A DNA stretch of 64,000 nt from Phycisphaerales bacterium (GTDB taxonomy: Bacteria > Planctomycetota > Phycisphaerae > Phycisphaerales > UBA1924): positions 1 to 64,000 of the forward strand of contig JABWBB010000005.1 in assembly GCA_013360675.1 (NCBI GenBank), written 5' to 3'. The notes below the pieces were generated by a model, which saw nothing but the letters and a program-made list of their open reading frames with translations, ran no database searches and had not been told where the DNA came from. Both the position numbers and the translations under genes were made by a program. This document shows, one piece after another, positions 2,848 through 54,846 of the stretch (position 1 is its first letter; each line of letters opens with the position of its first letter).

Positions 2848-3765
2848 TTAGCCATTGAACTTCGCAAAGGGCAAGAATGCCTCACCAGTCTGAGAGGCAT
2901 GACGTCGCACTCGCTCAATGACCGACCGCAGGTCGGACGCGCCGCCTAGCACCGCGTAGATGTGTGCGTGGTCGAGTAGCAACAACGGTGTTCGCGGACC
3001 GGAGCCTGCCGAGATCGCGGCCGAGGAGTACCCAGCCATTGAGATCATGATGCCCATCGTGTTGTCGGCCTTCGTCTCGACCTTTCGGCGGAAGACGTCA
3101 ACATCCGGCGCGCCCGCTTGTTCCATCGTGAACTTGAGCTCGACAAGATATGTGGTGCCGTTGTGCGAGAGCGACCCGTCGATCTGTCGATCCTCGTGCT
3201 TGTACGGGCGTCGGGCATCGACCTCTGAGAACTGAACAAGGTCAAAGAACCAGTCCTCAAAGTCGTAACCGGCCTTCTGCGTGCCAAGACTGCCCGTCAG
3301 CTCATCCAGCCGCTGCTTCAACTTCGCAAGGGACTGCTGTGAACGAGCCGCCCGAGCGCGTTCGGCGGCGTATCGCTCCCGGGCTTCAACTCGTTGCCTC
3401 TCCTGGCGTTCGCGCTCGGCCTCGTCCGTCTGATAGTGACGCAAGGCATTGACCGCTTCTACCGCCTGTCTGGTCTTCTGTTCGGTATCCTCCCATCCCT
3501 GCAAGTCCGGGAATGTGACCTGCTCAGCCAGCTCTCGTCCGAGTTGACGGAGGACCGCCGGCCCCTTGTCGGTCGATCGGAGTCGTTCAAAGAGTCGATC
3601 GAGAAAGTCCCGCTTCGTCTCCTCCTGATGCCAGGAGGCGACGAAGTTCTCGGAGATCCCGCAGCTCCGAAGGAACTTCGCAAGCGCCCGCTTTCGCCAG
3701 AACGAGGCGAGCAACGCAGAGTAGATCAAGTCCTCATGGTGCGCGGTGATCTCCCGAGTCGGCAT
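2848..3765 (-). CDS. Stand-alone PD-(D/E)XK restriction-endonuclease-like protein
   Basis: A 305-residue predicted nuclease. Residues 1-110 form a helical domain (ITAHHEDLIYSALLASFWRK... and HQEETKRDFLDRLFERL), followed by a charged coiled coil rich in Glu, Arg and Ala. The C-terminal half is an endonuclease fold: FEDWFFDL, then QIDGS, then VELKF, giving the PD-(D/E)XK pattern D-x12-ELK. Mrr-like and other type IV restriction enzymes share this core. There is no methylase or specificity partner nearby. It lies just downstream of the integrase and has lower GC than its neighbours, which fits cargo acquired with the element. A defence role against foreign DNA is inference. The ATG at 3765 is chosen because the upstream extension is low-complexity. 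Confidence 0.7.
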   Translation of the reverse strand: MPTREITAHHEDLIYSALLASFWRKRALAKFLRSCGISENFVASWHQEETKRDFLDRLFERLRSTDKGPAVLRQLGRELAEQVTFPDLQGWEDTEQKTRQAVEAVNALRHYQTDEAERERQERQRVEARERYAAERARAARSQQSLAKLKQRLDELTGSLGTQKAGYDFEDWFFDLVQFSEVDARRPYKHEDRQIDGSLSHNGTTYLVELKFTMEQAGAPDVDVFRRKVETKADNTMGIMISMAGYSSAAISAGSGPRTPLLLLDHAHIYAVLGGASDLRSVIERVRRHASQTGEAFLPFAKFNG

Positions 3766-3788
3766 GCTGAATACTACTGCGGATCGCT

Positions 3789-5144
3789 CTATCCCACCCG
3801 CCGCATGATCTCGGCCACCTTCGACTGGTCCCGCTCGGCGTAGACCGCGTCTGTCACGCGGGCGCTGGCGTGTCCGAGGACCAGGGCCGAGGCCTCCAGG
3901 CCGTGCTCCCGCCGGTAGAGCGTCGCGGCCGTGTGGCGGAGTTGGTACGGGAACCACCGCTGCTCCTTCCGCCACGCGTCCAGGGCCGCTGTGAGGCCAG
4001 TCGAAGCGAGGCGCTTCCGCCACGCCTCCCGGGTCTCATCGTCGCGCTTGGCCAGCGGCGCGGGCGGCGGGAAGGCCACGTCGCAGGCGTACTGCACGGC
4101 GCGGTAGTACGCCCGTGCGTCGTAGCGGTCGCCTGCGGTCTTTCTCGGCTCGGCCTTGCGGTTGGTCCCCGCGCGGTTGCCGCACGAGAGCGGCGTCTTC
4201 CGCGCCGCGGCCCGTATCGCCCGCCGCTCCGCGTCCGCCTCGGCGGGGCAGAAGAGGTACGCACCCGGCGGGCGGTCCATGAACCGCTCGAGCACGGCCT
4301 GCGCCTTGGGGCCGAGGAATAGCACGCGGTCGTGCCCCATGTACTGCGTCTTGTGCCGCTCGGGACGGACCACCCAGACCCCGTTGCCGCCGGAGGTGTC
4401 GATATCGCACGGGCGCAGGCTGAGCACCTCGTCGGGCCGGGCTCCCGTGAGCAACTGCAACCGCACGGCGGCAGCGACCGGGCTGGCCAAATACGGCAGC
4501 GTCTGCTCGACCACCTCCACTGGCACGGGCTTGACGACCCGCCCAGCACGCGCCTCGCAGCGCCCGGGCTTCAGCGGGTCCACCGCCAGCAGTTCCACTC
4601 TCACGCTCGCGGAGACGATCTCCTGCGACGCGGCCCACTTGAAGAGCCGGCACAGCCGCCGCACCTGCGCGTTGGTGTAGGTGACGCCCCAGCCTCGCCG
4701 GCCGCTCTCCGCGTCGTCGCGGATCATTTCGTCGCGGAGCCGCTGCAAACGCCGCGGCCCGAACGCCGACGCGGGCGTCGAGCCGTACGAGCGACGGAGC
4801 AGGCGGATCAGGGCCTTGAAGTGCCCCTGCTCGTTCTCGTTGAACTGCAGCGCCCGCGTCCGCCAGAAGCGGGCGCACAACTCGGAGATGGTGATGCCGC
4901 CCGAGCCGTCCGGCCCCCCGTCGCCGCCCGGCCCGCCGGCGGCGGGCTTCTCGAAGTCGGGGTCGATCAGGCGACGGCCGTTGGCCTCCCACTCGGCAAC
5001 AACGCGGTGGTATAGCTCGCGGCTCTCCGGCGATCCGAACTCGCCCAGCCAGTAGTCCCGCCGCCGTTTGGTCGCGGCGTCGGTCAGGGTGACGATGGCT
5101 TGGTTGCGGTCGTGGCGCTTGCGATAGCCCGGGGTCTTCGGCAC
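3789..5144 (-). CDS. int: Tyrosine recombinase / integrase
   Basis: A 451-residue site-specific integrase. An N-terminal region (residues 1-75) and a core-binding domain with ARFWRTRALQFNENEQGHF precede the catalytic domain. Visible catalytic elements are LLTGARPDEVLSLRP (first Arg), the HKTQYMG lysine region, YQLRHTAATLYRR, LGHASARVTDAVYAERD with the His of GH and the nucleophile Tyr of VYAER. The usual His of the H-x-x-R motif is Tyr here. The gene reads away from the adjacent tRNA-Asp, the standard layout for tRNA-site integration. It very likely inserted the element covering positions 1 to about 5260. Confidence 0.92.
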   Translation of the reverse strand: MPKTPGYRKRHDRNQAIVTLTDAATKRRRDYWLGEFGSPESRELYHRVVAEWEANGRRLIDPDFEKPAAGGPGGDGGPDGSGGITISELCARFWRTRALQFNENEQGHFKALIRLLRRSYGSTPASAFGPRRLQRLRDEMIRDDAESGRRGWGVTYTNAQVRRLCRLFKWAASQEIVSASVRVELLAVDPLKPGRCEARAGRVVKPVPVEVVEQTLPYLASPVAAAVRLQLLTGARPDEVLSLRPCDIDTSGGNGVWVVRPERHKTQYMGHDRVLFLGPKAQAVLERFMDRPPGAYLFCPAEADAERRAIRAAARKTPLSCGNRAGTNRKAEPRKTAGDRYDARAYYRAVQYACDVAFPPPAPLAKRDDETREAWRKRLASTGLTAALDAWRKEQRWFPYQLRHTAATLYRREHGLEASALVLGHASARVTDAVYAERDQSKVAEIMRRVG

Positions 5145-5225
5145 GGGGCACCTCCCGAAACTTCCAGCGCGGTGCGCGCACCGCGCGGAAATCGTTTCGA
5201 GCTGCGCCCCCGACCGTCGGGGGGT

Positions 5226-5242
5226 ACCCGTAACCTACGGGT
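5226..5242. repeat. Short inverted repeat between integrase and tRNA-Asp
   Basis: ACCCGTA and TACGGGT form a 7-bp inverted repeat with a 3-base loop, 19 bases beyond the tRNA 3' end. It may be part of the recombinase attachment region or a weak tRNA terminator; there is no T tract on the minus strand. Confidence 0.35.
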
Positions 5243-5261
5243 TCAGCAAGGTTTATCGAAG

Positions 5262-5335
<74 letters not shown>

Positions 5336-5528
5336 AAGTTTTCCGCGGTATGCCGCGACCCGGCCACGCTCAAACCCGCGCGCCGGGATCAGAATGTAGT
5401 CCGCTTCTCCCGAGTGTCAAGTCCGCGGGCCACGCCTCCTGGCATGCCCCCAAGCCCACTTTTCGTCTCGTGCATCGAGCCCGTAAGCCCACGGTATCGC
5501 GGGCCACGCAGCGCCGACCGTAATCGCC

Positions 5529-5741
5529 TTAGTTATTCCCCAGGTCCTTGAGCTTGATCTGCCCCGGTTCCTGAAGGCCAAAGGCGTTCCCCTCGGGTCC
5601 GACCTTCGCCCCCATCTGGAACATCACCACGCAAGCGATCACCAGGAAGATCGTCGCCGCCGCGGCCAAGACCGTGTACACGTCGGGTGCCGCACTCCGC
5701 TTGGCGCGGGCCCCGGGCATCTGCATTCCGAACTGGCTCAT
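5529..5741 (-). CDS. Small single-pass membrane protein
   Basis: A 70-residue protein of unknown function. One hydrophobic helix (YTVLAAAATIFLVIACVVMF, about residues 22-41) separates a basic N-terminus from a C-terminal tail, so it is probably an inner-membrane protein with the tail outside. It lies 31 bases downstream of the coiled-coil membrane protein gene and is likely co-transcribed. I do not recognise a family. Confidence 0.6.
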   Translation of the reverse strand: MSQFGMQMPGARAKRSAAPDVYTVLAAAATIFLVIACVVMFQMGAKVGPEGNAFGLQEPGQIKLKDLGNN

Positions 5742-5772
5742 GTGGTCGCTCCTCGCCCGTCCGGGCCCTAGC

Positions 5773-6627
5773 TTACTGCCCGAACCGGGTCGACACCACG
5801 TCGCCCACGCGAAGGTCCTTCCCGTCCGCCTTGAGGGTCACCTCGGCGACGGCGAACTGCAGGTCCGCCCGCGTCACCACCAGGTTGGCCAGCCAATCCT
5901 GACCACGCCCCACCAGGAACTGCATGTTGTTCGCCACGCGGTCGTTCGTGCCCACATTGATCTTCACCAGCGTGCGCCCCGTTGCCGGATCAGGACGAAC
6001 CTCGTCGATCCGCCCGCTGATGACCGGCCCGGTGTACACAAAGGGCTTGTCCTCGCCGCGCGCCACGCCGCTCAGCGCCGCTTCCTGCTGACGCTTGGCC
6101 TCGGCCAGCTGCTCCTGCAGCGCCCGACGATCCTGCTCGAGCACCTCGGCGCGGCTCTGGAGATCCGCCACGCGCTCCTCGAGTTCGAGCTGCTGCTTCT
6201 GACGCTGCAGGCTCGATGCACGGCCCTCGCGGACCTCATCCGAATACTTCGTCAGGAGCGCCGCCTGCGTCCGCGTCGTCTCGCCCAGCTCGGCGATCTT
6301 CGCCTGCACGCTCTGGCGCTCGAGTTCCGCCCGGTTCTTCTCCGCCGTCAGCGTCGCAATCTGCGCCTGCAGACGACGGCTCTCGTCCTGCAGATCGTTG
6401 ACCTGACGGTTCGCCGTGGCCAGCTGCTCGTTGAGGCGGTTCTGCTCCCCGTTGTGGGCCGCGGCCTGCGCCGCCGCCTTCGAGTCCGCCGCCAGGCGAC
6501 GCTGCTGCTCGGCGCGATAATCCGCCGCGATCCGATCGGTGTTGACCGCATATGCGATCACCAGCGTGGACAGGGCGATCGAAGCGATCGAGGCGATCAC
6601 GACAAAGATCTTCGTCAGGACGTGCAC
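5773..6627 (-). CDS. Membrane-anchored coiled-coil protein
   Basis: A 284-residue protein with an N-terminal membrane helix (IFVVIASIASIALSTLVIAY, residues 7-26), a long coiled coil (about residues 35-180, rich in Gln, Glu, Ala and Arg) and a C-terminal globular domain of about 85 residues. The globular part reads GPVISGRIDEVRPD...VKINVGTNDRV and ends DLRVGDVVSTRFG. This suggests a small beta domain sitting in the periplasm. No family is recognised; an envelope-structure role is inference. It probably forms an operon with the small membrane protein downstream. Confidence 0.7.
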   Translation of the reverse strand: MHVLTKIFVVIASIASIALSTLVIAYAVNTDRIAADYRAEQQRRLAADSKAAAQAAAHNGEQNRLNEQLATANRQVNDLQDESRRLQAQIATLTAEKNRAELERQSVQAKIAELGETTRTQAALLTKYSDEVREGRASSLQRQKQQLELEERVADLQSRAEVLEQDRRALQEQLAEAKRQQEAALSGVARGEDKPFVYTGPVISGRIDEVRPDPATGRTLVKINVGTNDRVANNMQFLVGRGQDWLANLVVTRADLQFAVAEVTLKADGKDLRVGDVVSTRFGQ

Positions 6628-6944
6628 GGTCTGCTCCTCGGTTCCGCCGCTTCCGGCGACCCAACCCGCGAACGCATCGCGCCGGCGACACGCTCACGGC
6701 GATTCAGTTATCCCACAACCCTTTCACGAACCGCCTCGCGACGGTCCCATCCCGATCGGCTCGGGGCGTAAGTGTTACCCGAACAACCACGCCCCTGTCA
6801 AACCGGGAACGCCACGGAATCTTCACGCCCCCGTGGCCGCATCACAATACCACACCCGACGCCGCCCGTCCCGCCGCCCCCGCCTCGTCCACATCCCAAA
6901 CATTCTCCGCACCCTGAGCACCAGAACCACTGGCTCTCATGGGG
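6628..6944. other. Intergenic region, nothing recognised
   Basis: 317 bases between the HEAT-repeat lipoprotein (ends here) and the coiled-coil gene (starts here), both read leftward. It must hold the promoter of the coiled-coil gene. No clear promoter boxes, strong terminator or RNA gene could be assigned. Confidence 0.4.
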
Positions 6945-7985
6945 TTAGCGCGACGAGGCCCGCAGCACCGACGCCGCCGCGGAAATCCGCACCGCCGCCG
7001 AAGGGTCTGCCAGCATCGCGCCAAGCTTGCCCATCGCCTCGGGCGACGCGATCTCGCCGTACACATACGCCACCTGCGTCCGGATCGTCGGGTTCGTGCT
7101 CGACGCGTACTCATCCGCGATGAATCCGCCCTGGCCAACGCCCATGCGTGCCAGCGCGGCGGCGATCCCCAGGCGCACCTCCGCGGGCATCGGCGAACCC
7201 GCCGCACCCTTGGGCCCCGACAGATAGATCAGTTGATCGATCGCCTCGCGATCGCGCACCTGCCCCATGATCTGCACCGCCAGCGCCGCCGCTTCGAGAT
7301 CCTCCGGGTTCGACGGGTAGAGCGCCGCCCGCAGCGTGCCTCGCTGCGAATCGTCCCCCAGTTTCACCATCGCCTCGGCGCACTGCAGGTGGAACAGCCG
7401 CAACCGCTCACCGCCCACACCCCGCATCGGATCGCGCAGCGCATCGCGCAGCAGCGGCAGAGCCGTTCGATTCCCGATCTCGCCCAGCACAAACGCCGCG
7501 TGACTCCGCACCTCGAGCGACGGATCGCGCAGCAGAATCCCCGCCAGCGGCGACTGATCCGCATTGCTCCCCGTCCGCGTCAACGCATAGATCGCCGACG
7601 CCCGCACATGCCCCGACGTCTCTCCCCCCGCCGCCGTCGCGTACGACGAAAACCGCGCCAGCCGCGCCCGCCCCACCGTCATCAGCGCCACCGATCGCAC
7701 GGCCCAGTGCCGATCATTCAGCGCCCGTTCGATCGCGCCTTCGAGCCGCGCCGCGGCAAATCCCGCCGCTTCCGCAGCGTTGGCGCGGATCTGCGCGTCT
7801 TCGCTCTTCGATGACTCTTCGACAATCGCCAACGCCCGCTCACGCAGCGACGACGCCGCCAGCGGATCCTGCCTCTGCGTCGGCGGCTGATCCCCTGTCC
7901 CGCCCGACGGGTTCTGCGTCTGCGCCGGCGTGCATGCGTACAGCCCCGCCAGCGCCACGATCATCAGCACGCGTCCCTGCCTCAT
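6945..7985 (-). CDS. HEAT-repeat lipoprotein
   Basis: A 346-residue predicted lipoprotein. The signal peptide ends in a lipobox, LYAC, near residue 18. After a short Pro/Gln-rich linker, most of the protein is made of HEAT-like repeats such as DRHWAVRSVALMTVGRAR and DPSLEVRSHAAFVLGEIGN, and it ends DPSAAVRISAAASVLRASS. Such repeats usually form binding scaffolds. The ATG overlaps the lnt stop by four bases (ATGA), so a lipoprotein is coupled to the enzyme that acylates lipoproteins. Partner unknown. Confidence 0.8.
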   Translation of the reverse strand: MRQGRVLMIVALAGLYACTPAQTQNPSGGTGDQPPTQRQDPLAASSLRERALAIVEESSKSEDAQIRANAAEAAGFAAARLEGAIERALNDRHWAVRSVALMTVGRARLARFSSYATAAGGETSGHVRASAIYALTRTGSNADQSPLAGILLRDPSLEVRSHAAFVLGEIGNRTALPLLRDALRDPMRGVGGERLRLFHLQCAEAMVKLGDDSQRGTLRAALYPSNPEDLEAAALAVQIMGQVRDREAIDQLIYLSGPKGAAGSPMPAEVRLGIAAALARMGVGQGGFIADEYASSTNPTIRTQVAYVYGEIASPEAMGKLGAMLADPSAAVRISAAASVLRASSR

Positions 7986-9739
7986 GCCGCTTCTCCCGGG
8001 CGACGCCACCATCGCGACGCCGCCAATCCCAAGCCCGTCAGCGCGAGCATCATCCAGCCCACGCTGTCGCCCACGCGCGCGTACACCGTAACAGGTCCGC
8101 CCACGCCCACGTCGCCGACCAGCACGCCATCCACGCGGCAGCGCCCTGCGCCACCGCCGTTCGTCACCACGCCCGCGCGCACAACCCGGCCCCCCGCATC
8201 GACGATCGCCGACACCCCCGTGTTCGCCGCCCGCACCATCCACGTGCGCAGCTCGACGCACCGCCATCGCGCAATCTGCAGGTGCTGCTCGCGCCCGCCG
8301 TCCCACCACGAGAACCACCCGTCGTTGGTCAGGTTCACGATCACGTCCGCCCGCCGCGTTCCGCCCTCAAACACCAGCCGACGGCAGACCCACGCCGTCG
8401 TCACCTCAAAGCAGATCGGCGTCACCACCCGCACCACGCCATCGCCCGCGCGCACCGGCAACACCGTCGGCGTCGTTCCCGCGGCGAGATCGAACGACAT
8501 CCCCCGCGCCCCGAACGACAGCAACTGCCGCTCGAGCCAGGGCCACTTCGAGATATACGGCATCACCTCGCCAAAGGGCGTCAGCCGCAACTTGTCATAC
8601 CGCTCGCGCGAGATCCGCCCCCCGTCCACCACGTACGCGCTGTTGTACCGCGCGTCCCATTCGATCTCGACCCGCTCGCCCGACGACACGCGATACCCGT
8701 CGTGCCCCAGCGCCCCCACCACCAGCGGTAGGCCCAGTTCCTCCTGCACATCGAGCAGCCGATCCGCAAAGGCCGTCGCCATGAGCCGCGTGGGCTGGCT
8801 CGGGTTCGCCGGATCGGGCGCGAAATTGAAGAAAATCCCCTCCTCCGCGAGGGCCTTGAGCCCCGCGGGGTCGAGCGTCGGCCCGGGGAGCATCGTCTCG
8901 GGCCACACGATGAACGCTGGCGAGTGCCCCGCCGCCTCCACCGTCATCGCCTCGAACCGCTGCCAGTCCTTCACCTCTCGCTCGATGGTCGAGTTCGTCT
9001 TGTTGTCCTGGGGCACATTGGTCTGCACCACCGCCACGCGCACCATCGTTCCAGCACCACCAGTATCACGCCCCAGCCAGGCCAGCCCGATCCACGCCAC
9101 CACCCACCCCGCCAGCAGCCCGACCCCCACGCGCCGCGACGGCGCACGCGCCAAATCGATCATGGCCCCGCTCACGCCCGCCAGCAGCAACAGCACGAGG
9201 TATTGCCCGCCGATCGACGCCGGGTTCGCCGCCCACGCCCATTCGATCAGCGGATGCGAGGCCAGACCCCACGGGTACCCGTCCCACAGCACCTCGCCGC
9301 GCAGAAACTCGCTCGCGGTCCACGCCAGCGGCACGATCACGCCCAGCGATAGCCGCATGCGCCGATGCAGCAGCCCCATCACCCACACGCCCACGCCGCT
9401 GTACGTCGCCATCAGCACCGCCAATGGCACAAACCCCAGCGCCGAGATGTTCATTATCCACACGTGCAGATAGGCCCACGCGGGCAGCGCCCCCAGCGCG
9501 AACCACGCCGCCCCGCGCCATGCTGGCACGCGCCCGGCTCCGATCCGCTCCGCCGCAATCACACCCGGCACGAGCGCCACGAACGTCAGCCACCACAGCC
9601 CCACCGGCGGCAGCGTCAACGCCAGCAGCACCCCGTGCCCCAGCCCCAGCAGCACCAAGGCCCGCGCCGCATCCGGCGACGACCAACGCCCCGGCGTGGC
9701 ATCGCGCCGCTCGCCCAGTTCGTCGGATTGAGTTGTCAT
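7982..9739 (-). CDS. lnt: Apolipoprotein N-acyltransferase
   Basis: An inner-membrane enzyme of about 585 residues that adds the third acyl chain to lipoproteins. Several N-terminal membrane helices (residues about 28-225) precede a nitrilase-like domain. The Glu-Lys-Cys triad is visible: E281 in FIVWPETMLPG, K383 in YDKLRLTPFGEVMPY and C443 in TPICFEVT. A last membrane helix lies near the C-terminus. The ATG at 9739 is used; a GTG at 9751 would add four residues. It follows accD by 27 bases and overlaps the HEAT lipoprotein gene, forming a lipid/lipoprotein operon. Confidence 0.9.
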   Translation of the reverse strand: MTTQSDELGERRDATPGRWSSPDAARALVLLGLGHGVLLALTLPPVGLWWLTFVALVPGVIAAERIGAGRVPAWRGAAWFALGALPAWAYLHVWIMNISALGFVPLAVLMATYSGVGVWVMGLLHRRMRLSLGVIVPLAWTASEFLRGEVLWDGYPWGLASHPLIEWAWAANPASIGGQYLVLLLLAGVSGAMIDLARAPSRRVGVGLLAGWVVAWIGLAWLGRDTGGAGTMVRVAVVQTNVPQDNKTNSTIEREVKDWQRFEAMTVEAAGHSPAFIVWPETMLPGPTLDPAGLKALAEEGIFFNFAPDPANPSQPTRLMATAFADRLLDVQEELGLPLVVGALGHDGYRVSSGERVEIEWDARYNSAYVVDGGRISRERYDKLRLTPFGEVMPYISKWPWLERQLLSFGARGMSFDLAAGTTPTVLPVRAGDGVVRVVTPICFEVTTAWVCRRLVFEGGTRRADVIVNLTNDGWFSWWDGGREQHLQIARWRCVELRTWMVRAANTGVSAIVDAGGRVVRAGVVTNGGGAGRCRVDGVLVGDVGVGGPVTVYARVGDSVGWMMLALTGLGLAASRWWRRPGEAA

Positions 9740-49385: not shown

Positions 49386-50684
49386 TCAACGCGGCGTCGA
49401 GCTGACAACTTCGCCATTGATGATCACGCCCACGCACTTGCTGGTGAACTCAAAGGGGTCGCCATCGAACAGGGCCACGTCGGCGTCCTTGCCCGGCTCA
49501 AGGGTGCCCAGACGGCTCTGCACGCCAAGGATCATCGCCGCATCGCGCGTCACCAGGGCCAGGGCCTGCTCGAACGAGAGGCCATGGGCGGCGGTGATGC
49601 CCGCCTCGAAGAGCACCACGCGCGTCTTGGGCACGTAACTCTCGTAGCCGCTCTGCATCGCGACGCGCACGCCCGCGGCAACGAGTTTCGCCGGGGTTTC
49701 GACGCTCATGTTCTCGAGCTCGCCGTACGCCCGCGCCATGCTGGGATGGATGATGACGGGGATTTTTCGGGCGGCGATCTCGTCGATCAGTTGGTATGCC
49801 TCCGCCCCCGAATCGAGGATCACCCTGATTCCAAATTCGTCGGCGAGACGCAGCACGTTCTGAATGTCCTGCGCGCGGTTGGCGCTGACCAGCAGCGGGA
49901 CTTCGCCCGCGATCACCCGCCCCAGCATCTCCAGGCGCAGATCACGCGCGGGCTCTTCCTTGGTCGTTTCGGGCTTGGAATCGCCGGAAGTATCGGTGGG
50001 CGAGTCCTTGAGGGCCGAGGCGGCTTTGGATTCTCGCTTCTCGCGGTACTCGCGCGCCTTGATCAACTGCTCGCGCAGCATCGCGACCATCTTGCCCCGC
50101 GTGCCCGTCGAACGATCGCCACTCTTCTGCGCCCAGGGCGAGAGTGTGGCGGCGACCGTGACGCCGTCCTTCACGAGCGCGGCCTCGACGGTCCGCCCGC
50201 TGGTCTTGACCACCATCGTCTGGCCCGAGATGAGTTCGCCCGGGGCGTGCCCGGTGTGCACGGCGGTGATGCCGAACGAACGCACCCATTGCACCAGCGG
50301 ATCGTTAGGGTTGTAGGCATCGATCGCGCGCAGTTCGGGCTGGATGGGGCTCGAGCGGTCGAGTTGGTCCTGGTCCTGCTTCTGGTTCAGCAGGCCCGAC
50401 ACCCCCACCGTGCCGCGCGCGTCGATCAGACCCGGCGTGGCGATCGCGGCGCGCAGCAGCGTGTACCCCTCGGGGATCTTCACCTGCGTCGCGGGGCCGA
50501 CCGCCTCGATCTTGCCGTCGCGCATCAGCACCACGCCGTCGCGGATCGGCTCGCCCGCCATGGTGTGCACCACGTCGGCGCGGATGGCGACCTGCGCGCT
50601 CGCCGATGCGGCCAAGGCCGTCATCGCCGCGAGGCTGGCAAGAATGGAACGACGAAGCGCACGATGCGCAGAAACGTGTATCAC
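49386..50684 (-). CDS. Amidohydrolase-like protein lacking metal ligands
   Basis: A 432-residue exported member of the amidohydrolase superfamily, with signal peptide (SILASLAAMTALAASASAQ). The overall fold and the C-terminal composite domain (LGTLEPGKDADVALFDGDPF) match the gene upstream. The metal-binding sites are missing: the usual D-x-H-x-H is PGLIDARGTVG, the His pair region reads VSANRAQDIQNVL and the late Asp site is lost. It is probably a pseudoenzyme. A GTG start overlaps the stop of the active paralogue (GTGA), suggesting coupled synthesis and perhaps a shared complex. Confidence 0.8.
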   Translation of the reverse strand: MIHVSAHRALRRSILASLAAMTALAASASAQVAIRADVVHTMAGEPIRDGVVLMRDGKIEAVGPATQVKIPEGYTLLRAAIATPGLIDARGTVGVSGLLNQKQDQDQLDRSSPIQPELRAIDAYNPNDPLVQWVRSFGITAVHTGHAPGELISGQTMVVKTSGRTVEAALVKDGVTVAATLSPWAQKSGDRSTGTRGKMVAMLREQLIKAREYREKRESKAASALKDSPTDTSGDSKPETTKEEPARDLRLEMLGRVIAGEVPLLVSANRAQDIQNVLRLADEFGIRVILDSGAEAYQLIDEIAARKIPVIIHPSMARAYGELENMSVETPAKLVAAGVRVAMQSGYESYVPKTRVVLFEAGITAAHGLSFEQALALVTRDAAMILGVQSRLGTLEPGKDADVALFDGDPFEFTSKCVGVIINGEVVSSTPR

Positions 50685-52039
50685 TCGCCACCCCCGATCC
50701 CGGCGTCTTGCAAGGCCTGCTTGGCGCAGCACAGATAGGGCTCTTGATCGCGCCCGGCGCCGAACCCGCCCACCGCGAAGAGGTGGTCCTCGGGGTTGGC
50801 GAGATCAAAGACGAGCTGCCCCTCGACGTAGGTCTTTTCAATCTTGGTATAGACGCTGAAGGGATCGCCGCTGAGCACGAGGAAGTCGGCGTCTTTGCCC
50901 GGTTCGAGCGAGCCGACTCGTTCTCCCAGGTCGAGCATCTTCGCCCCGGCGAGCGTGACGGCGCGGAGGGCGCCCTCGCGGGACATCCCGCCGCGCACCG
51001 CCAGCGCCGCGCTGCGCAGGAAGCGGCGGCTGTCGGTGATCCAGTCGTCGGTGTGGATGCAGACCGCGGCCCCGGCCCGCTCGAGCGCGCCGCCCGTGCC
51101 CAGCGAGAGTTCGGCGGCCTCGAGTTTCCCGCCGGGCGAATCGATCACGATGATCGAGCAGCCCGCGCCGGCGGCGGCGATCTCGTCGGCCACCTTCCAC
51201 GCCTCGCTCACGTGGTGCAGCACCACGCGAAATCCAAACTCGCGCTGCAGGCGCAGCACCGTCATGATGTCATCGGCCCGGTGCGTGTGATGATGCACCA
51301 CGGTCGCGCCGCTGAGCACGTCGCCCAGCGCTTCGAGGCCAAGATCGCGGGGCGGCCGCTTGGCCGGGTCGAACGTGCCGTCGGGGTTGCGGGCGGCCTC
51401 GACCTTGGCGGCGTATTCCTGGGCCTTGATGAAACGCTCGCGCACGAGCGCGGCGCTCTTGGCACGGGTGCCCGGGAAGGGGGCCTCTCGCTGCGAGTTG
51501 GTGCCGTTAGCCATCTTGATGCCGCGGGTGGGGTTGCCCTTGTCGTCGCGGATGAAGAGGTCGTCGATGCGAGCGAAGGGCTTGCCCGCCTTTCGGCGCA
51601 GCTTGAGATAGACCGTCTGTCCGCTGAGCAGGTGCCCCGAACCGGGCATGACATTGACGGTGGTAATCCCCCCCGCGACGGCCCTGCGAAAGCCCGAATC
51701 GAGCGGGTTGATGGCATCGAGCACGCGCACGTCGGGCTGGATGGGGGCGCTTCCGTCGGCCCCGCCCGCGCCACCGATGTGGCTGTGCGTGTCGACCAGG
51801 CCCGGCATGATGACCTTGCCGCGGGCGTCGATGATCTCGGCCCCCGCGGGGATGGCAACCTGGCCCGCGTCCCCCACCGCGAGAATCGTGCCCTTATGGA
51901 CCACCAGCGTCCCGTCGGCGATCTCGGGGCCGCTGGCGGTGATCACCCGCGCATGCGTGAAGGCCAGGGGCGTGTCCTGGGCATGGGCCGCGGCACATGC
52001 CAGTACACACGCCACCGCACCAAAGAAACCAAATTGCAT
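50681..52039 (-). CDS. Secreted amidohydrolase with intact metal site
   Basis: A 452-residue exported metal-dependent hydrolase. Signal peptide FFGAVACVLACAAAHAQ; metal ligands in DTHSHIG, in the VVHHHTHRADD His cluster and in the Asp of CIHTDDW. C-terminal LGERVGSLEPGKDADFLVLSGD is typical of imidazolonepropionase/dipeptidase-like members. Substrate unknown. It lies 20 bases after the ATP-grasp gene and overlaps the degenerate paralogue downstream. Confidence 0.85.
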   Translation of the reverse strand: MQFGFFGAVACVLACAAAHAQDTPLAFTHARVITASGPEIADGTLVVHKGTILAVGDAGQVAIPAGAEIIDARGKVIMPGLVDTHSHIGGAGGADGSAPIQPDVRVLDAINPLDSGFRRAVAGGITTVNVMPGSGHLLSGQTVYLKLRRKAGKPFARIDDLFIRDDKGNPTRGIKMANGTNSQREAPFPGTRAKSAALVRERFIKAQEYAAKVEAARNPDGTFDPAKRPPRDLGLEALGDVLSGATVVHHHTHRADDIMTVLRLQREFGFRVVLHHVSEAWKVADEIAAAGAGCSIIVIDSPGGKLEAAELSLGTGGALERAGAAVCIHTDDWITDSRRFLRSAALAVRGGMSREGALRAVTLAGAKMLDLGERVGSLEPGKDADFLVLSGDPFSVYTKIEKTYVEGQLVFDLANPEDHLFAVGGFGAGRDQEPYLCCAKQALQDAGIGGGE

Positions 52040-52059
52040 GAGGCACACTCCGGGTGAGG

Positions 52060-53040
52060 TCAATCGCTGAGGTCGAACATGGCGCGGAAGGCGCGCCGGT
52101 AGATCGCCTTGGCCGCGTCGTAGCCGCGGGCGTGGTCGCGGGCGAGAAACTCCATCATGACGCCGCTGTTGGCCTCGAGCACCAGGGGCCCCGAGGCGGT
52201 CTCCACGATATCAACACTGCCAAACTCGAGTTCGACGCACGACGCGGCTTTGAGCGCCAGCGGGGTGAGCGCCGCGTGCGTGGCGCTGCCGGGCTCGAGC
52301 AGTCGCGGGGCGGCGCCCTGGCCCAGGTTGTGCCGCCAGTTGAGCAGGTGCTCGACACCCTTGGCCGGGACGCTCGTGAGCAGCGCCAGCGCCGGCGGGT
52401 CCATCGAGGCCAGCGCCCGGTCGATGCGCGTGCGCTCGCCCGGGTCCTTGGCGGCCCGGGCCAGCAGGTCGAGCACGGAACTGGTTCCATCCCCCACCAC
52501 GCGCGGGCGGACCTTTGAATACGCCAGTTCCACCCGCCCGCGCAGAACCACGAACCGGTGCTCGGCGCCGATCTCGACAAACGGGCTCAGCGCGATGGCG
52601 TGGGTGCGCTGAAACAGGTGCTCAACCGCGAGTTCGAGTTCCCGCGCGTTCGACACGCGCAAGACCCCCTGCCCCCCCGTGCCCATGTTTTCCTTCACCA
52701 CCAGGCGGTACTGATGCTCCGCGGCGAACTCGAGCATCTTCGCCCAGTTGCCTTCGTGGGGCACGTACGCGCCCATCTTGGGATGCAGAAAGACGCGGTG
52801 CGGCACACAGGGAACCCCCCGCGCCGCGAGCACTTCAGACGACGCCGCCTTGTCGGTGACGATCGCGTGCGTCGCCGCGCTGGAGAGGTCGAACGCATAG
52901 CCATAGACGTAGCGGGCTTTGGAGCCCAGCTCGAGGCGGAGGATCCACCCCTGGCCCAGGTCGTCGAACCGCGCGCCGTGTTCGGCGGCCAGCTCGCGGA
53001 GGATCCGGTACAACGCCCGCTCTGTGTTCAGGCCCGTCAT
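52060..53040 (-). CDS. ATP-grasp family ligase
   Basis: A 326-residue ATP-grasp protein related to RimK/glutathione-synthase-like ligases. It has the ATP-binding loop YRLVVKENMGTGGQGVLRV and the metal-site region IVETASGPLVLEANSGVMM. It would join a carboxylate to an amine or thiol using ATP. Substrate unknown. It leads an operon with the two amidohydrolase-family genes, so ligase and hydrolase may act on related peptides. The ATG at 53040 is used. Confidence 0.7.
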   Translation of the reverse strand: MTGLNTERALYRILRELAAEHGARFDDLGQGWILRLELGSKARYVYGYAFDLSSAATHAIVTDKAASSEVLAARGVPCVPHRVFLHPKMGAYVPHEGNWAKMLEFAAEHQYRLVVKENMGTGGQGVLRVSNARELELAVEHLFQRTHAIALSPFVEIGAEHRFVVLRGRVELAYSKVRPRVVGDGTSSVLDLLARAAKDPGERTRIDRALASMDPPALALLTSVPAKGVEHLLNWRHNLGQGAAPRLLEPGSATHAALTPLALKAASCVELEFGSVDIVETASGPLVLEANSGVMMEFLARDHARGYDAAKAIYRRAFRAMFDLSD

Positions 53041-53155
53041 GCGATGGGCCAAGCGTAGCGGATCGCCCGGGCCAGGAACGCCTTTCATTCCGGACCGCCC
53101 CGTGTAGACTGCAAAGGTCAGCCGCGGGGATTCTCGCCCCCAGGGAGCGCTCGGC

Positions 53156-53638: not shown

Positions 53639-53880
53639 ACCGTCCCTGCGATTCCAGTGCGTGTAACGCGGGGTTTATCGCCCCAACCCGACCAGAACCC
53701 TGCTTTTTGCGCGAATTCCACTCGCTTGGAGGAACTCTGGCCGACATCTTCCGGTAGCATGAGGGGCGGAACGGGTGCGTCTGTGTGAAGATGCTCCGGC
53801 CCCTCGCACGGATACGCCGCGCGCCTCGCTCCCACCCTTTACGGAACCGGGCAGGCCCGCCGGGCGTCGGAGTCAGCATT

Positions 53881-54846
53881 ATGAATCGCATCACGAGCGG
53901 CACAAGCATCACGACGGCCTTTGTCCTTGCCCTGGCCGGCGCCACGACGGGCGTGCAGGCGCAGCAGGCCGCATCGATGGGCACCGGCGCGACGCTCACC
54001 AGCACGCACCCCAAGCGCGACACGGCGAACCGGATGATGCGTCCCATCACCATCGAGTTCAGCCAGACTCGCCTCGAGGACGTGATGAAGTTCCTCGCCG
54101 ACGTGACCACCGCCGACATCGAGGTGATGTGGACCGACAACCAGAACGTGACAGGCCTCGACAAGGACACCGAGATCACGCTGACCTCGCGCGGGGCCAG
54201 CGCCCTGGCCGTGCTCGAGAAGGTGCTCGAAAAGGCCGCGACGGATTCGGCGGGCACGGGCGGCAACACGTGGCAGTTGACGCCGTCGGGCACGCTGCAG
54301 GTCGGGCCCAAGGCCCGCCTCAACCGCTGGAAGCGCGTCGAGGTCTACCCCATCGGCGATCTGCTGCTCGATCTGCCCGTCTATAACGACGCGCCCGAGT
54401 TTGACCTGCAGGCCGTGCTCCAGGGTGCGCAGCAGGGCGGCGGCGGCGGCGGCCAGAGCCCCTTCCAGACCGAGCAGAACCAGGACCGCGACACCCGCAC
54501 CCAGGAAGAAAAGGCCCGCGATCTCATCAGCATTCTCACCCGCCTCGTCGAACCCGAGCAGTGGGCCGACGGCGGGGGCGACGGCGGCACCATCACCTTC
54601 TTCCAGGGCAGCCTGCTCGTCAACGCCGCCGATTACATGCACCGCGAACTCGCCGGATATCCCTGGTGGCCCAAGAGCCGCACCCGCATCGCCATGGCCA
54701 AAGGGCGGCGCTACGTCACCCTCAGCGGCGACGCGACCCTCGGCAAGGTCGACGGGATGATCAATGTCCCCGTCACCGGTGCCGTGCCCGGACAGGGCGG
54801 TGGCGGTGGCGGCAACAACCCGCCCGATCCGCTCGGGCCTGGTTGA
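53881..54846 (+). CDS. Exported secretin-N-domain-like protein with Gly-rich stretches
   Basis: A 321-residue exported protein: signal peptide SITTAFVLALAGATTGVQAQ, then IEFSQTRLEDVMKFLADVTT, a pattern resembling the secretin N-domain/STN fold, and two Gly-rich linkers (QQGGGGGGQ near 180 and PGQGGGGGGNNPP at the end). The rest is beta-rich. Function is not known; it may act with a secretion system, but the secretin itself is not in the window. A start at 53785 is possible but the peptide before 53881 is low-complexity. Confidence 0.6.
   Translation: MNRITSGTSITTAFVLALAGATTGVQAQQAASMGTGATLTSTHPKRDTANRMMRPITIEFSQTRLEDVMKFLADVTTADIEVMWTDNQNVTGLDKDTEITLTSRGASALAVLEKVLEKAATDSAGTGGNTWQLTPSGTLQVGPKARLNRWKRVEVYPIGDLLLDLPVYNDAPEFDLQAVLQGAQQGGGGGGQSPFQTEQNQDRDTRTQEEKARDLISILTRLVEPEQWADGGGDGGTITFFQGSLLVNAADYMHRELAGYPWWPKSRTRIAMAKGRRYVTLSGDATLGKVDGMINVPVTGAVPGQGGGGGGNNPPDPLGPG

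Follow-up and report, generated by a model that had tools for sequence, protein, structure and literature searches.

A probably exported amidohydrolase and its ancient paralogue without metal ligands, a likely functional unit of Phycisphaerales and other bacteria

Why would a bacterium keep, directly behind the gene for a complete amidohydrolase, a second gene of the same family whose product lacks every metal ligand? This question is raised by a 64,000-nucleotide stretch of a Phycisphaerales bacterium (contig JABWBB010000005.1 of assembly GCA_013360675.1, positions 1 to 64,000; the window in the following), which contains three open reading frames on the minus strand, encoding an ATP-grasp protein (P0003), a complete amidohydrolase (P0002) and a paralogue without metal ligands (P0001). 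A sequence-only reading of this DNA had described them as a ligase, an amidohydrolase and a paralogue overlapping the latter by four bases, and indeed all three frames and the GTGA overlap are present. Here, we argue that P0002 and P0001 are one functional unit, i.e. a probably exported hydrolase and an ancient non-catalytic paralogue, which most likely replaces a subunit of the enzyme and modulates it, and we put the probability of this at about three in four. The two genes are located as follows.

50681..52063, minus strand: P0002, complete amidohydrolase with all metal-site residues present (Pfam, fold model)
49386..50684, minus strand: P0001, pseudo-amidohydrolase of 432 residues with a GTG start at 50684 and a signal-peptide-like N-terminus (fold model, conservation)
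50681..50684, minus strand: GTGA, four-base overlap of the P0002 stop and the P0001 start (sequence)

In alignments the metal-site pattern of P0002 is intact (HSH / K / HxH / H / DD), whereas none of these residues stands at the corresponding positions of P0001, which is approximately 36% identical to P0002: HSH is changed to RGT, the lysine of KMANGTN to alanine, HTH to SAN and LHH to LDS, and the DD of strand 8 is replaced by a GYES stretch. The positions below were compared across 98 pseudo and 91 active rows, which join the set from the order with a named set, i.e. the best 80 loci from a scan of a collection of species genomes; at least four loci are doubled in the joined set (L049/L090, L048/L101, L052/L127, L051/L120).

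51779..51787, minus strand: HSH metal-ligand motif, strand 1 of P0002; both histidines in 90 of 91 active rows, the remaining row having a gap
51515..51517, minus strand: lysine of KMANGTN, strand 4 of P0002, a candidate carboxylated bridging lysine (presumed role); K in 91 of 91 active and 0 of 98 pseudo rows
51281..51289, minus strand: HTH, strand 5 of P0002; both histidines in 91 of 91 active rows
51212..51214, minus strand: second histidine of LHH, strand 6 of P0002; H in 91 of 91 active and 0 of 98 pseudo rows
51047..51049, minus strand: first aspartate of HTDDW, strand 8 of P0002, the catalytic aspartate; D in 90 of 91 active rows (one gap) and 0 of 98 pseudo rows, with E aligned in all pseudo rows
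50409..50417, minus strand: RGT of P0001, replacing HSH (alignment to P0002)

All six core metal-site residues occur together in 89 of the 91 active rows, and at most three of the six in any pseudo row; the second histidine of HxH, the strand-4 lysine, the strand-6 histidine and the strand-8 aspartate are never kept in the 98 pseudo rows. The pseudo family has residues of its own instead, since 35 columns are conserved at ≥93% with a residue other than the commonest active one, and many of these columns lie at the old active site (GHAPG, HPTMxR, YExYVPKxR).

The AlphaFold2 model of P0001 reached a predicted local distance difference test score (pLDDT) of 89.4 and a predicted template modelling score (pTM) of 0.90 (P0002: 90.4 and 0.90), and its nearest solved structure, 3ooq, was matched with a VIA-align Z of 48.8 and a root mean square deviation of 2.0 over 372 residues. 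3ooq is also the nearest structure for the P0002 model, and both models match it far above any other structure. Likewise, both proteins scored above the cut-offs of PF07969 and PF01979 (82 and 61 bits for P0002, 58 and 42 bits for P0001). By its predicted barrel fold and its metal-site motifs, P0002 classes as a catalytic member of the amidohydrolase superfamily; P0001 belongs to the same superfamily by predicted fold and sequence family and, judged by its metal-site residues, is not one of its catalytic members. A PYxCC tail motif follows the catalytic domain of P0002 (window about 50710-50740) and is also seen in relatives: 53 out of 73 full-length active proteins have CC among their final 60 residues, and in the pseudo family one single cysteine near the end is conserved.

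Signal peptides were assessed by eye. P0001 begins with RR, a hydrophobic core and ASA-Q, and similar signal-peptide-like starts were seen in both amidohydrolases and in most relatives, and none in the ATP-grasp protein. For P0002, starting at the TTG at 52063 gives a four-base overlap with the end of the ATP-grasp gene, and an ATG at 52039 gives a signal-peptide-like start (MQFGFFGAVACVLACAAAHA-Q); the ATG appears at least as likely as the TTG to be the start. Loss of all metal ligands, a kept fold and a kept signal peptide had all been ascribed to the paralogue beforehand, and each is borne out by these data, the signal peptide by its appearance.

Among the order's 151 genomes, 18 contain an orthologue of P0001 (E ≤ 2.3e-114, against 1.1e-47 for the next match) and exactly the same 18 one of P0002 (E ≤ 4.5e-192, against 8.6e-87), the pair being adjacent in 16 of them and located on different contigs in the other two (G083 and G134). 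Among 294 genomes of the phylum, 42, including the source genome, gave a match to the pseudo gene at E ≤ 2.3e-149, each with an adjoining second match (counted by eye). By their titles, the named loci stem from Planctomycetota and its classes, Acidobacteria, Verrucomicrobia/Opitutae and Krumholzibacteriia, along with some doubtful bin names. Of these 80 loci, 77 have active sequence immediately upstream of the pseudo gene and in the same orientation (73 full length, two split by a frameshift, two cut by a contig end); of the remaining three, two are truncated by a contig end, and in the third case (L111) the active gene was found on a different contig of the genome. A hand count showed that in 56 out of 76 loci the pseudo gene could start within the active stop, with a start codon placed so that the two genes share four bases (-4) or one base (-1).

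Across phyla the pseudo gene shows approximately 50-65% identity, a conservation which, judging from the sequences, is beyond chance. Mean column identity is 63% for the pseudo (18 rows) and 64% for the active gene (15 rows), mean pairwise identity over 73 loci is 0.592 and 0.617, and the ratio of nonsynonymous to synonymous substitution rates (dN/dS) in 11 close pairs ranges from 0.022 to 0.151 and from 0.022 to 0.135, respectively, values which show purifying selection on the pseudo gene similar to that on its partner. The pairwise identities of the two genes correlate over the 73 loci with r = 0.76, a value that shared descent alone could give. The loss of all metal ligands might suggest a decaying pseudogene or a recent functionless duplicate; however, dN/dS is as low as the partner's, the 18 best pseudo-gene matches of the order contain no stop codons, and the dead copies form one old clade across phyla (see below), so that this explanation is already refuted and we give it practically no credence. 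The sequence-only reading had proposed a coupled enzyme/pseudoenzyme pair and had stated that a degenerate gene either missing or inactivated in relatives would speak against it. In the relatives this gene is conserved, intact and under purifying selection, and the coupled pair is strongly supported.

The partnership takes more than one form. In five genomes (L189-L193), among 12 stretches picked for fusion analysis because of long frames or outlying pairs, active and pseudo domains are fused in a single reading frame, the complete live domain first and the dead one second; the other seven stretches (L194-L200) carry pairs of a more distant subfamily, again live first, dead second. A third form, found in 9 of 14 stretches, consists of two proteins: a long one, whose N-terminal domain is dead and whose C-terminal domain is live, and behind it a separate dead one. 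The source genome itself harbors this form in a second cluster on contig C2 (L065, G000:C2:25000-35249, at 3574-9433), with two dead domains per live one. In L074 and L076 (G013:C15, G033:C1), five or more amidohydrolase-like frames lie next to one another in a run. On plasmid records, pairs were seen in Qipengyuania (with a four-base overlap) and in Novosphingobium, and Hymenobacter has a broken set. The same records show single live genes in Acetoanaerobium, Monoglobus, Cytobacillus and Nonomuraea, where a second gene of the family was not found within about 7 kb.

A tree of 57 rows with the active-site columns removed was rooted on these four single live genes, the outgroup being our choice. 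The pseudo partner domains formed one clade (branch values 99/96.6) and the live domains another (100/99), with the single genes outside, and both clades split alike (ps+fusC from p2+triP, and ac+fusN from p1+triA): within each, the narrow family groups with the fusions and the distant pairs group with the three-domain form. From the narrow family, six of the 18 pseudo rows and six of the 16 active rows entered this tree. It omitted p1 and p2 of L199, which have long branches, every dead domain at the N-terminus of the two-domain form, the rows of L067 and L069 and some further open reading frames; in an earlier unrooted tree that included L199 and the N-terminal domains, p1_L199 did not fall within the active clade, and how the two pseudo groups join was left unsettled. 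Since the subfamilies of the pseudo clade mirror those of the active clade, the pair goes back to one ancient duplication; in the simplest history, one of the two copies then lost the metal site and both were inherited jointly, with fusions and unlinkings at later times. Only tentatively do we go further and suggest that this single duplication preceded the split of subfamilies now present in at least five phyla and gave rise to an obligate exported unit of one live and one dead barrel, whose rebuilt, conserved dead pocket would be an allosteric or substrate-guiding site; the pair would then be an amidohydrolase prozyme system, elaborated in places to a form made of one two-domain and one single-domain protein, in which two dead barrels accompany a live one.

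How, then, might the two proteins work together? P0002 would act as a metal-dependent amidohydrolase, probably exported, and P0001, its metal binding lost, would be retained as the non-catalytic partner, taking one subunit place of an ancestral homo-oligomer; this dead subunit may stabilise, complete or switch the catalytic one. Because the two genes are retained together even where they are unlinked, overlap at stop and start, are fused in the same order, have a single origin and are equally constrained, we favor a fixed physical partnership. A regulated complex of P0002 and P0001 appears to be the likeliest mechanism, and from the comparisons above we infer the physical complex, the activation or regulation and the export of the pair. 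Several points weigh against this view. A published report of such a complex was not found in the literature searched; P0001 might also act metal-free on the same substrate without touching P0002. Moreover, the genes are unlinked in three genomes (G083, G134 and that of L111), the agreement in 18 of 18 genomes overstates the number of independent events because these genomes are related, and in G432 (L118), where the pseudo gene lies at a contig end, a narrow-type active orthologue was not found (best match 2.3e-69).

Two further explanations leave the pair intact and differ in what P0001 does. It could be a periplasmic protein with a neofunctionalised barrel that binds or scavenges the partner's substrate or product on its own, without a stable complex; the strongly conserved pseudo-family residues at the old active site would fit a ligand site, and unlinked genes are tolerated in the three genomes just named. 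However, the fusions in five genomes and the mirrored subfamilies favor a fixed one-to-one partnership, and we regard a free binding protein as unlikely. Still less probable in our view is a chaperone or a helper of export or metallation, needed only while P0002 matures: the start/stop overlap couples synthesis and both proteins have signal-peptide-like starts by eye, but the dead domain stays in the same chain in the fusion proteins. A regulated complex therefore remains our preferred explanation.

For the substrate, our best guess, held with considerable doubt, is a small peptide or an N-acyl amino acid, because the structures ranking next behind 3ooq include dipeptidases and carboxypeptidases of the superfamily and a peptide transporter gene stands beside one pair. 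The latter was seen on a Qipengyuania citrea plasmid, where a PTR2-type gene lies directly before the four-base-overlapping pair (L206:1780-6269); being one case only, it was rejected as a pair-associated gene. Assignment of P0002 as an Xaa-Pro dipeptidase (NF051886) was rejected as well, with 66 bits against a cut-off of 500.

Does the neighboring ligase gene belong to the unit? The sequence-only reading had drawn all three genes together as an operon and a conserved triplet, and this is the part that did not hold.

52060..53088, minus strand: P0003, ATP-grasp protein of 342 residues, with an alternative ATG at 53040 (Pfam/NCBIfam, neighborhood comparison in the order and more widely)

The start at 53040 given earlier is the second ATG, and the frame runs from 53088 to 52060. 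Pfam and NCBIfam place P0003 loosely, the nearest family being, weakly, the ATP-grasp part of cyanophycin synthetase. An ATP-grasp relative was found near the pair in 0 of 17 other loci of the order and 0 of the 80 named loci (the sets share at least four loci), and clustering of the neighbors of the 18 order and 80 named loci revealed no further conserved partner gene, the clusters being frames that overlap the pair or genes common to few, mostly closely related loci. Clear orthologues of P0003 occur in three further genomes among the 151 (G116, G083 and G140), with no pair-type amidohydrolase around them at any of the three loci; in G083 the ATP-grasp, pseudo and active genes lie on three contigs (C5, C10 and C9). 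The ATP-grasp gene is thus, as far as these comparisons tell, a chance neighbor of the pair. A pathway of all three genes, in which the ligase forms a peptide-like bond for the amidohydrolases to cleave or control, perhaps within a metabolism similar to that of cyanophycin, could appeal to the closeness of the genes on one strand, to the family that P0003 resembles most and to a peptidase S51 (cyanophycinase family) gene at L065:1474-2682, before the second amidohydrolase cluster of the source genome. This S51 gene stands next to no other cluster examined, and the link to cyanophycin was rejected; P0003 itself scored 57 bits with TIGR02068 against a cut-off of 850 (a model of 862 positions). 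Together with the scarcity of P0003 and its absence beside other pairs, this leaves the three-gene pathway very improbable and already largely refuted. Near the ATP-grasp gene, both here (53785-54846) and in G140 (L064:12508-13593), lies a gene for a protein of 353 residues that matches no Pfam family, with 56% identity over 261 residues; the pair is absent from that G140 locus.

From these results we conclude that the finding is real and more general than first described, with one gene too many in the original version. A few eukaryotic cases are known in which a dead paralogue activates its live counterpart; here, a bacterial family is concerned, in which the pairing seems older than the split of widespread subfamilies. 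In the annotated records seen, such genes bear the plain name amidohydrolase, so that the dead half will probably be taken for an enzyme; the live half may seem inactive when it is expressed alone. The natural fusions and the unlinked but jointly kept copies are ready-made tests of the pairing.

With regard to known systems, the nearest relative is 3ooq, a solved amidohydrolase of Thermotoga maritima, which is also the nearest PDB sequence to both proteins (about 32% identity to P0002, 26-28% to P0001); its metal-site motifs are present and those of P0001 absent. A paper describing it was not found in the open PubMed Central (PMC) literature, to which the search was confined and which also yielded no report of an amidohydrolase with a dead amidohydrolase partner. 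The L-Lys/L-Arg carboxypeptidase Cc2672, Xaa-Pro dipeptidases, isoaspartyl dipeptidase and ochratoxinase share the superfamily fold (Z about 23-27 to the P0001 model); since identities are 14-20% and scores, where tested, far below the NCBIfam cut-offs, their substrates are not transferable. Bile-salt amidohydrolases (PMC13081902) differ from our case in that the accessible part of the report describes co-located live copies and mentions no dead partner. Enzymes with dead paralogues are a known kind, of which an old, widespread and probably exported amidohydrolase version appears undescribed in the literature searched. The pseudo-dihydroorotase (pDHO) of Pseudomonas aeruginosa resembles P0001 in being a dead amidohydrolase-superfamily protein with a partner enzyme, aspartate transcarbamoylase, whose activity requires it (PMC7053772). 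That partner has another fold, whereas the partner of P0001 is its own paralogue and both look exported; P0001 is not a pDHO, as the dihydroorotase model gives 19 bits against a cut-off of 645 and the conserved partner is an amidohydrolase. A model of how the pair may work comes from the trypanosome AdoMetDC/prozyme (PMC5201418) and deoxyhypusine synthase (PMC3663545) systems, where a dead paralogue activates the live one in a hetero-oligomer. These are other enzymes with other folds in eukaryotes, and the complex demonstrated there is one that we infer here; like them, P0001 and P0002 would be of the prozyme type, with dead and live chains that are paralogues of one duplication.

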